Origin: Dyadobacter flavalbus
GTDB taxonomy: Bacteria; Bacteroidota; Bacteroidia; Cytophagales; Spirosomataceae
Direction: 5' to 3'
Length of the DNA stretch: 64,000 nucleotides
NCBI RefSeq assembly: GCF_006149045.1
Contig: NZ_VBSN01000038.1
Coordinates: 372,001-436,000 of the forward strand
Positions 24,730 through 37,515 of this stretch are shown here, one piece after another. Under the pieces are notes generated by a model. It was not told where the DNA came from. It saw only the letters and a list, made by a program, of their open reading frames with translations, and did no database searches. Both the position numbers and the translations under genes were made by a program. Every line of letters begins with the position of its first letter. Position 1 is the stretch's first letter.

Positions 24730-24837
24730 TTTTTGACTTCTTCATGCTCCACGTTCTTGCGGCCATACTCTGCCTGAACAGAAATTCTGTTACCTGCTGG
24801 CATAGCAAACAGCCTGAATCCCTCCATACATTCCACC

Positions 24838-24886
24838 CTTTCTCCTTTCTCCTTTCTCCTTTCTCCTTTCTCCTTTCTCCTTTCTG
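24838..24886. repeat. heptanucleotide tandem repeat (CTTTCTC)x7
   Basis: Six perfect copies of CTTTCTC and a seventh with one change form a pure polypyrimidine tract on the plus strand. It sits in the 337 bp gap between the PorT-like gene and the Kelch/T9SS gene, about 180 bp before the latter's start. Such tracts vary in copy number by slippage and can tune promoter spacing. No other gene is seen in this gap. Confidence 0.9.
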
Positions 24887-25066
24887 CCTTCCTTCTTACC
24901 ACCTTTCCTCCTCTTTCCCCGCCAACTTGTAAAATGAGGTTGTAAAATATTCGCGTTTATCAGAATTAACTTAAAAATGGCTTTATATTAGCATAGACAC
25001 TGGCATGTTATTTACCGAGTTAGCTGCCGGCTTACAAATTCTAATTTATTCACAAAAACGTTCGTT

Positions 25067-35748: not shown

Positions 35749-35807
35749 ATGCTTTTTTCTTTTGACATATTGTTTTCAAAAGTAATAAACAAGGAAAAGA
35801 GCTATTT

Positions 35808-35840
35808 AAAAGCCTGCAAATTCTGAATTTGCAGGCTTTT
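35808..35840. terminator. perfect inverted repeat, bidirectional terminator-like
   Basis: AAAAGCCTGCAAATT / AATTTGCAGGCTTTT, 15 bp perfect arms around a three-base loop, A-run and T-run at the ends. It bounds the left end of the tRNA-Lys-derived array. Confidence 0.7.
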
Positions 35841-35857
35841 AAGTTCCAGTGATCTTG

Positions 35858-36255
35858 TTGCAATACCAATAGCACCGGCCACCGGCCGGGACCCATCCAT
35901 CAAAAGGATGCAAGGTAAATGAAAAAAGCGCCTGTCGAGGCGCTTTTCAGTGATCCCGCTGGGATTCGAACGGCATCGGCCGCCCGGCCAGGACCCAAAC
36001 ATTAAAAGGATGCAAGGTAAATGAAAAAAGCGCCTGTCGAGGCGCTTTTTAGCGATCCCGCTGGGATTCGAACGGCACCGGCCGCCGGCCAGGACCTATC
36101 CATCAAAAGGATGCAAGGTAAATGAAAAAAGCGCCTGCCGGGGCGCTTTTCAGTGATCCCGCTGGGATTCGAACGGCATCGGCCGCCCGGCCAGGACCCA
36201 TACATTAAAAGGATGCAAGGTAAATGAAAAAAGCGCCTGTCGAGGCGCTATTCAG
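35858..36255 (-). repeat. tandem array of tRNA-Lys 3'-fragment plus terminator units (about 102 bp)
   Basis: Four units, with terminator hairpins starting at about 35921, 36023, 36124 and 36226 (spacing 102, 101, 102). On the minus strand a full unit reads: the middle of tRNA-Lys (anticodon loop to variable region), a GC-rich insert of 15-16 bp such as GGCATCGGCCGCCCGG (plus strand) in the T-loop, the T-arm and acceptor 3' end, then the GCGCCTCGACAGGCGC hairpin with a T-run and GCATCC-like filler. The 5' half of the tRNA is always missing. The leftmost copy is degenerate. The array ends at an intact tRNA-Lys gene. Confidence 0.85.
36227..36248 (-). terminator. terminator of the first tRNA-Lys gene
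   Basis: On the minus strand GCGCCTCGACAGGCGC is followed by six T, just after the tRNA 3' end. The same hairpin is copied in every unit of the array downstream. Confidence 0.75.
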
Positions 36256-36328
36256 TGATCCCGCTGGGATTCGAACCCAGGACCCATACATTAAAAGTGT
36301 ATTGCTCTACCAGCTGAGCTACGGAATC
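36256..36328 (-). tRNA. tRNA-Lys (anticodon TTT)
   Basis: 73 nt cloverleaf read on the minus strand. The acceptor GATTCCG pairs with CGGGATC, discriminator A. D-arm GCTC...GAGC, anticodon stem ATACA/TGTAT around CTTTTAA, T-arm CTGGG/CCCAG around TTCGAAT. No CCA is encoded. Confidence 0.95.
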
Positions 36329-36428
36329 TTGTTTTGCTGATTTTTTAACTGTTCAATTTCAGAATTTGTTTTGCCAATGTTTTAATTGCTGTGCTGAGAA
36401 GCTTACACTAAAATATTTCAAAACTTGG

Positions 36429-36501
36429 TGATCCCGCTGGGATTCGAACCCAGGACCCATACATTAAAAGTGTATTGCTCTACCAGCTGAGCTACGGAAT
36501 C
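36429..36501 (-). tRNA. tRNA-Lys (anticodon TTT), second copy
   Basis: Identical over 73 nt to the copy at 36256-36328, 100 bp upstream of it in transcription direction. Probably one tandem transcription unit. Confidence 0.95.
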
Positions 36502-36552
36502 ATTTATTTTCTTTTAACACCTGTATTCTCTTTGCTATCTTCTCATGTAAGA

Positions 36553-36620
36553 GCCAGGACCCATACATTAAAAGCGGACGCCGCGCGGTGTATTGCTCTA
36601 TCAGCTGAGCTACGGAATCT
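36553..36620 (-). pseudogene. interrupted third tRNA-Lys copy
   Basis: On the minus strand the 5' half (acceptor 5' strand, D-arm, anticodon stem 5' side) is nearly perfect. Then 14 GC-rich bases (CGGACGCCGCGCGG on the plus strand) interrupt the anticodon loop, followed by the middle part to CCAGG. The T-arm and 3' acceptor are missing. The break points coincide with those used in the array at 35858-36255. Confidence 0.75.
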
Positions 36621-36780
36621 TGTTTTGTTAATTTTGTTTTTTAACTGTTCAACTTTCAGTTTTTCGGATTCCGAGTTTGAAAGGCTTAACGTTGTCTCAG
36701 CTCTGGAATTCTGCATTTCATTGGATTAGCCGAGGCATTTTCCGTAATTGCGATGCAAAAGTAGAATTCTAAAAAGTATA

Positions 36781-37515
36781 ATGCAAGTCCTGAGTAAGAA
36801 ATACCTGATGTTTTGGCTGATAACGGGATCAATATTGGTGCCGAAAACAGCACTTTCTGCCAATTATAAAGAGCTAAAAACTGCTGATTCTCTGTTTGCT
36901 ATGGCGCGGTATACGGAGTCAATGATTTTGTATAAAAAAAATTTCAGCGAACAGGAAAAAAATAACGAAGCACTGCTGTTGAAGCTCGCTTTTTTGTCAG
37001 AAAAGACAAATAATTATACAGACTGCCTGTTTTACCTGAGCAAACTGGCCCTGATCAATCCTTCCCGAAGGCTCTTTGAAAAAATGGATAAACTGGCCGA
37101 AGAGCAAAATATAAAAGGTTATGAATTTGATGATTACAACTATTTTATAATATTTTATCGAAGATATGGTGATTACATTCCGATATTGCTTCTAACTTTG
37201 GGGACCTATATAGTTGTAATCATGGTGACAAAATCGCGGCGGAGAGAACCGATCCTTCAAATCCATAAGATCTCAATCGTTGCTTATCTGCTGGTTTTAC
37301 TGGGATTGCTGAATGTTCCGTCACTTTATCAGACATGCATTATAGTCAATGAAAATACTTTTTTACGCGACGAACCTTCTTCTGCGTCCTCGGTAATCGA
37401 AAGGATCGGGAAAGGTCACAAGCTTACTATTTTAGGTTCTGTGGATCACTGGAACAGGGTAATCTGGGACAACGAAATCGTTTATATCCGCAAAAGTGAT
37501 GCCCTGGATATTTAA
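36781..37515 (+). CDS. membrane protein with TPR-like and C-terminal SH3-like domains (BatE-like)
   Basis: 244 aa from the ATG at 36781; an upstream TTG at 36748 is unlikely. An N-terminal signal or membrane segment is followed by a TPR-like helical region (about 30-105, ADSLFAMARYTESMILYKKNF). Two membrane segments lie at about 125-150 and 160-185, and a C-terminal SH3-like domain at about 190-244 (LRDEPSSASSVIERIGKGHKL). This order resembles BatE proteins of the Bacteroidota aerotolerance cluster, but the other bat genes are absent here. Function unknown. Confidence 0.7.
   Translation: MQVLSKKYLMFWLITGSILVPKTALSANYKELKTADSLFAMARYTESMILYKKNFSEQEKNNEALLLKLAFLSEKTNNYTDCLFYLSKLALINPSRRLFEKMDKLAEEQNIKGYEFDDYNYFIIFYRRYGDYIPILLLTLGTYIVVIMVTKSRRREPILQIHKISIVAYLLVLLGLLNVPSLYQTCIIVNENTFLRDEPSSASSVIERIGKGHKLTILGSVDHWNRVIWDNEIVYIRKSDALDI

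Follow-up and report, generated by a model that had tools for sequence, protein, structure and literature searches.

The window analysed here is a 64,000-nucleotide stretch of Dyadobacter flavalbus (contig NZ_VBSN01000038.1, positions 372,001 to 436,000), a member of the family Spirosomataceae in the order Cytophagales whose genome is available as a 76-contig draft. Its minus strand carries, from 36619 down to 35808, a tRNA-Lys region in which intact genes stand beside broken tRNA-Lys copies interrupted by short GC-rich inserts. Two intact tRNA-Lys (UUU) genes lie at 36426..36501 and 36255..36328 and were both called by ARAGORN and Rfam. Directly 3' of the second gene is a row of four units on the same strand: unit 1 (36147..36248), unit 2 (36046..36146), unit 3 (35944..36045) and a degraded unit 4 (35858..35943), with lengths of 102, 101, 102 and 86 bp from terminator to terminator by script and direct reading. 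Tandem Repeats Finder gives the array, at 35882-36276, a 102-bp period repeated 3.9 times, with 91% matches and a score of 692. The earlier description of four units of about 102 bp, each with the middle and 3' end of tRNA-Lys and a GC-rich insert in the T-loop, is confirmed apart from the degraded unit 4. The array also adjoins an intact tRNA-Lys as had been proposed, but the range originally given to it (35858-36328) takes in the intact gene 36255-36328 itself.

In each unit a GCGCC hairpin and its T run come first; past a short spacer there follow tRNA-Lys positions from about 32 to 52, the insert, and a tRNA 3' piece. These parts were placed in unit 1 at 36227-36248 (hairpin), 36191-36211 (tRNA middle), 36175-36190 (16-nt T-loop insert) and 36153-36173 (3' piece), in unit 2 at 36125-36146, 36089-36109, 36074-36088 (15 nt) and 36052-36072, and in unit 3 at 36024-36045, 35988-36008, 35972-35987 (16 nt) and 35950-35970. 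Unit 4 retains the hairpin (35922-35943), the middle (35886-35906) and a 14-nt insert remnant (35872-35885), but degradation begins after the insert and the recognizable tRNA 3' piece is lost, a point on which the first-pass annotation needs correction. No unit was called as a tRNA by ARAGORN or by Rfam at its gathering score, so the units lack the complete cloverleaf by which such tools recognize a functional tRNA gene. Each unit does have the terminator-like hairpin assigned to it; this hairpin, however, stands 5' of the tRNA piece, and a different hairpin at 35808..35840 (minus strand), resembling the one found 3' of tRNA-Lys in relatives, follows unit 4. A simple terminator scan made one call in 35750-36700, after the intact tRNA, against an average of 1.2 in shuffles, and the other three hairpins with T runs are identical or near-identical to the called one and were read from the sequence by script, so the label "terminator" is a reading and not a tested property.

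A further broken copy, outside the range covered by the first-pass annotation, occupies 36554-36619 on the minus strand and is interrupted in the anticodon loop. Its 5' half (36589..36619, by script match) reaches the 5' edge of the anticodon loop, where CCGCGCGGCGTCCG, an insert of 14 nt, is found (36575..36588); the tRNA middle (36554..36574, about positions 32-52) comes next, and no 3' piece follows it. The anticodon-loop and T-loop inserts of the window belong to one family in opposite orientation, which explains them better than a pairing of the two as stem partners around the tRNA middle.

The same 14-mer is dispersed in the genus. Our search covered 98 relatives besides the window's own genome, with genus patterns run on 48 Dyadobacter genomes; below, G numbers denote genomes and L numbers individual loci as labelled in the analysis, G000 being the window genome, which groups in one genus with G014, G020, G005, G008 and G046. 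At up to one mismatch CCGCGCGGCGTCCG gave 350 matches versus 170 for the reversed control, so that half of these matches are background; per genome, matches were more numerous than the control in 38 of the 48, equal in 3 and fewer in 7. Their contexts include the anticodon loops of tRNA-Val and tRNA-Met, T-loops, transposase genes and interspersed repeats. A stricter 16-mer matched 32 times in a sample of 14 Dyadobacter genomes, every one of which contained it, with no match for the control. Of the 32 Spirosomataceae genomes from other genera, 4 contained it (5 matches versus 0 for the control), and the remaining 245 Cytophagales genomes gave 4 matches versus 3 for the control, which is background level.

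Insertion by members of this family is precise. A motif-free scan of 1.25 Mb of loci recovered 67 precise indels of 8-30 nt, including 19 rows of 14-16 nt with a GC content of at least 80% (about 15 sites after joining strand duplicates); the loci were mostly chosen for holding the insert, so the scan proves precision and exact empty sites but not frequency. At the exact empty sites there is no target duplication beyond an ambiguous C, and the flanks of 93 distinct sites show an A at -1 in 58% and a C at +1 in 83%. Family members are 14-17 nt long. We found no published description of interrupted-tRNA rows or of such inserts in Dyadobacter, although most subscription journals were outside our coverage.

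The first-pass annotation had suggested looking for the insert within tRNA-Lys of other genomes, and this search was positive, with the family extending moreover beyond tRNA. By exact pattern, tRNA-Lys pieces with a T-loop insert occur in 10 of the 48 Dyadobacter genomes (reversed control 0). Altogether, T-loop inserts were seen in copies of eight tRNA kinds, namely Lys, Arg-CCT, Arg-ACG, Arg-TCT, Val-TAC, Pro-GGG, Ser-GGA and Thr-GGT (the Arg-TCT assignment draws also on an adjoining intact tRNA-Arg), and in all eight the insertion point is the same, after TTYGAA on the antisense strand. A pattern of T-loop plus insert at up to one mismatch matched 62 times in 26 of the 48 genomes versus 6 times for the reversed control, with some of the 62 falling in repeats or coding sequence that hold no tRNA. 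The window genome is absent from these 26 because its insert variant differs; locus L056, a chance match, and the intact tRNA-Val row of L128/L160 were excluded from the comparison of T-loop copies across the eight tRNA kinds. The variant CCGCCCGGCGGCCCGG is common to Lys, Arg-TCT and Arg-ACG copies, while CCGCGCGGCGGCCG is common to Pro, Ser and Thr copies and to a Telluribacter Lys copy, where, read on the other strand, it is identical to the dispersed Dyadobacter form. Sharing of one variant across tRNA kinds is hard to obtain by gene conversion between different tRNAs, and the insert itself therefore seems to be copied between sites. One family is present at many unrelated sites in more than one species, with a shared T-loop insertion point, precise insertion and several exact empty sites, and in its scattered copies and precise empty sites it is like mobile elements in general. 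A separate case at L113:150-290 (G034) is a tRNA-Asp-like broken copy with an apparent GC insert at the anticodon loop that ends in tRNA-Lys 3' bases and has an integrase next to it.

Sites away from tRNA genes point to transposase genes and repeats as further targets. Among nine protein pieces beside inserts, seven matched the integrase core (rve), although one of the seven scored under the curated cut-off; an eighth matched an HTH transposase domain and the ninth had no match. Several insert positions fall in codons that would be catalytic-motif positions of DDE transposases. The one intergenic target checked for copy number, in G025, belongs to a repeat family with 34 matches at E 0.1 including itself, most of which span 18-40 bases.

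Tandem rows of an interrupted copy plus a hairpin are also found beyond the window, for six tRNA kinds (Lys, Arg-CCT, Arg-TCT, Val, Ser-GGA and Pro), with hairpins that differ between kinds. Most rows sit directly downstream of the intact cognate tRNA; L141 and L224 have no intact one in the stretch examined. The tRNA-Lys rows of G012 and G047 are longer than that of the window and their hairpins are unlike its own, and such rows probably arose more than once. In G047, a serine recombinase with Resolvase and Recombinase domains (L071:7957-9702) has a frame that runs into the tRNA-Lys row. A slightly stricter pattern for tRNA-Lys pieces with T-loop inserts, applied to 84,980 species genomes, a scan that may omit the window's own genome or near ones, returned 19 stretches: 6 from Dyadobacter, 1 each from Telluribacter, Rhabdobacter and Arundinibacter, and 10 others. 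We dismissed L044, L048, L052 and L053 as normal long-arm tRNA-Ser, L040, L045, L051, L055 and L056 because they contain no tRNA, and L046 as a Saprospiraceae row of another kind. This last row (L046:3533-4169, from the metagenome-assembled genome contig JALHQW010000042.1) adjoins an intact tRNA-Lys and has 110-bp units that are tRNA-Lys-like, with an altered anticodon arm and a terminator-like hairpin; no GC micro-insert was seen in it. A phage or plasmid origin of the window's row was rejected: at E 0.001 nothing among 50,697 phage and 72,556 plasmid records matched the row, and two viral contigs matching a pattern did so by chance, with no tRNA in the stretch.

Given these patterns, we consider it somewhat more probable than otherwise that the row consists of dead tRNA pieces that were duplicated in tandem together with a very short insert, apparently mobile and belonging to a genus-wide family. 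A dispensable tRNA-Lys copy would first have been struck in its T-loop by a 14-17-nt, GC-rich, hairpin-prone member of the family. The hairpin with the tRNA-Lys middle and 3' piece would later have been duplicated in tandem downstream of the live tRNA-Lys pair, at a site that is occupied in many relatives by tRNA-targeting tyrosine integrases, and the T-loop insert would have multiplied along with the unit, while a second family member would have struck the anticodon loop of the neighbouring copy. We infer that insertion preceded duplication, that the row was built by duplication rather than selection, and that the insert moves. Unequal recombination, an origin put forward by the first-pass annotation, fits the row, as does tandem duplication.

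Several points weigh against this reading, beginning with the background half of the 14-mer matches and the composition of the loci scanned for indels. Movement was not itself observed in this sample, which is not a strain series of one species, and selection may be another reason why rows recur in several tRNA kinds. A number of 14-mer contexts (for instance L120, L136, L148 and L166) are plain coding sequence and were not counted as inserts. One of the 19 GC-rich indel rows (L079:14661) looks unrelated to the family, and a GC content below 60% marks 11 rows of 14 nt in the same scan, most of which are minisatellite steps from G039 loci, while two adjoin the Lys anticodon insert. The hairpin tendency is slight: the best stems of 25 insert variants, 3-5 bp long, came in sum to 3.8 versus 3.24 in shuffles (p 0.0005), which weakly supports a hairpin-prone nature, but no single variant beats its own shuffles (lowest p 0.108) and the variants are mutually related. 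In G039, loci L175-L179 were separately observed to hold CCTTTAA-type minisatellites with several family inserts at TTTAA^CC.

An alternative that we consider doubtful is that the row grew by integrase accretion, through repeated integration and loss, or that its units are decoy attachment sites diverting integration from the live tRNA. The units retain the tRNA 3' end that integrases use, as do the tRNA 3'-end attachment sites of tyrosine-integrase elements, and such elements are found at this tRNA-Lys in relatives. We located the same site in 38 Dyadobacter genomes through the neighbouring gene at 36748..37515 on the plus strand, which encodes a 255-aa protein with an SH3 domain. A tyrosine recombinase or its remnant lies 3' of the tRNA-Lys at 22 of the 38 sites, about 0.25 kb away where intact; 16 belong to a closer kind and 6 to another that is about one-third identical. 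Two further sites, in G002 and G027, are cut by contig ends. In G046 and G020 remnants stand just beyond the interrupted copy, and in G034 an integrase follows the tRNA-Asp-like broken copy ending in Lys 3' bases. The element's inferred right junction, however, is GTATGATCCCAGCGGGATCAC or close forms of it and contains neither the tRNA middle nor the insert, so that the units lack the identity with the element junction expected of a right-hand attachment site. The interrupted copies are found beyond this junction or, as in G045, G033, G047 and G012, with no such integrase seen in the stretch, and G045 has an interrupted copy with none within 20 kb. Further, integrases occupy the intact tRNA-Lys despite interrupted copies near by (L061, L062, L075 and L111), the Lys core is mutated in some units of the G012 row, and identical inserts are also present at sites remote from all tRNA genes. 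The proposal of the first-pass annotation that an element inserts repeatedly at the tRNA 3' end thus gains from the integrases of relatives and loses from the junction and from G045. Integrase attachment arms were also considered as the source of the insert, as two-insert copies downstream of an integrase first suggested; this was dropped because the junction core is shorter and because of G045. As for the elements themselves, a tyrosine-recombinase element of about 3 kb lies 3' of tRNA-Lys at L061:7671-8903 (domains Phage_integrase, Phage_int_SAM_5 and Arm-DNA-bind_5) and also at L062, L075, L082 and L084, with decayed copies at L064, L066 and L068.

It is unlikely, in our estimate, that the units serve as regulatory or decoy RNA, that is, as stable tRNA-like transcripts titrating a tRNA-acting enzyme or nuclease, each ending at its own hairpin. 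Recurrence of rows for six tRNA kinds with different hairpins would agree with such a role, as would the insert columns, which vary little from unit to unit in G012 and G047, and the Saprospiraceae row, whose tRNA-Lys-like units have hairpins and altered anticodon arms but no such insert. Against it, the 5' half of the tRNA is missing from the Lys units, which therefore have no acceptor stem; promoter-like sites across the region stay at shuffle level (1 versus 1.2); and no RNA function is required to explain the related inserts of transposase genes and repeats. We give equally little credence to a targeted micro-insertion system that would add a templated 14-17-nt GC hairpin to DNA that is redundant or parasitic, at fixed positions, and so silence it, with duplicated tRNA T- and anticodon loops, conserved transposase catalytic motifs and interspersed repeats as its targets and the rows of interrupted tRNA copies as its by-product or tool.

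A further explanation, to which we assign a slimmer chance, is that the inserts are ordinary repetitive extragenic palindromes (REPs) moved by RAYT (Y1) transposases. Y1_Tnp genes were found in 15 of the 16 Dyadobacter genomes searched, and the inserts, like REPs of the GTAG and CGTC super-families, are small, GC-rich, dispersed, sometimes within genes, and somewhat hairpin-prone. REPs measure 20-40 bp, and CGTC REPs have stems of 8-9 bp with an unpaired CGTC tag and a CCA-like tail and, like the inserts, are without a known transposase (PMC3733652). The inserts are shorter, at 14-17 nt with stems of at most 3-5 bp, and have no GTAG or CGTC tag beside a 5-13 bp stem; CGTC is present in the commonest 14-mer and absent from most T-loop variants, and membership among CGTC REPs was rejected because the same source gives other sizes. 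The flanks of 20 Y1 genes, the best matches and not all, viewed by eye with GC marking, contained other, different-looking repeats, and a single family member was seen, close to one gene (L204); these Y1 genes were not flanked by the insert in the manner of a RAYT, and RAYT/REP as the direct source of the insert was rejected since other repeats surround the Y1 genes viewed. G019 has a T-loop insert yet no Y1_Tnp match at E 0.001. At L190-L209, Y1 (RAYT-like) transposase genes are flanked by their own hairpin repeats, one of which contains a micro-insert (L204).

No moving enzyme was identified in the Y1 search of 16 genomes and the 20 Y1 loci viewed. An HUH-type enzyme that acts in trans on the insert as a folded single strand of DNA is a guess at the mode of movement that we regard as doubtful, weakened by G019 and by the other repeats around Y1 genes. 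Fungal double-hairpin elements and mitochondrial byp elements are likewise small hairpin inserts within genes, but they are larger and mitochondrial, and there is no sign of the Dyadobacter insert being skipped or removed. Another likeness is to yeast mitochondrial GC clusters, which are described as short, GC-rich, palindromic, dispersed inserts thought to be mobile by an unknown mechanism (PMC4478555). The Dyadobacter inserts are also GC-rich, palindromic (with weak hairpin support) and dispersed, but they are only 14-17 nt long, lie on a bacterial chromosome, and lack the flanking direct repeats of target bases of the mitochondrial type. Since the insert resembles a GC cluster or a REP but fails in size, stem or flank features, we assign it to neither.

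An assembly or collection artefact is very improbable: repeats are prone to misassembly and the window genome is a draft in many contigs, but like structures occur in independent genomes and inside large contigs (as in G012, assembled in two contigs, and in G033 and G035, each a single large contig), and the insert variants differ between species and recur between sites.

Provided that they move, the inserts would rank with the smallest bacterial mobile DNAs: they fall short of both the REPs and the GC clusters of this comparison in length, follow a sharp target rule and tend to strike tRNA loops and transposase genes. They would then offer a bacterial system for asking how REP-like and GC-cluster-like palindromes spread. 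They also account for a type of broken tRNA copy that is present in Spirosomataceae genomes but overlooked by annotation tools. Elsewhere in the window, at 24837-24897, we observed a tandem 7-bp repeat, CCTTTCT, in about 7.6 copies.
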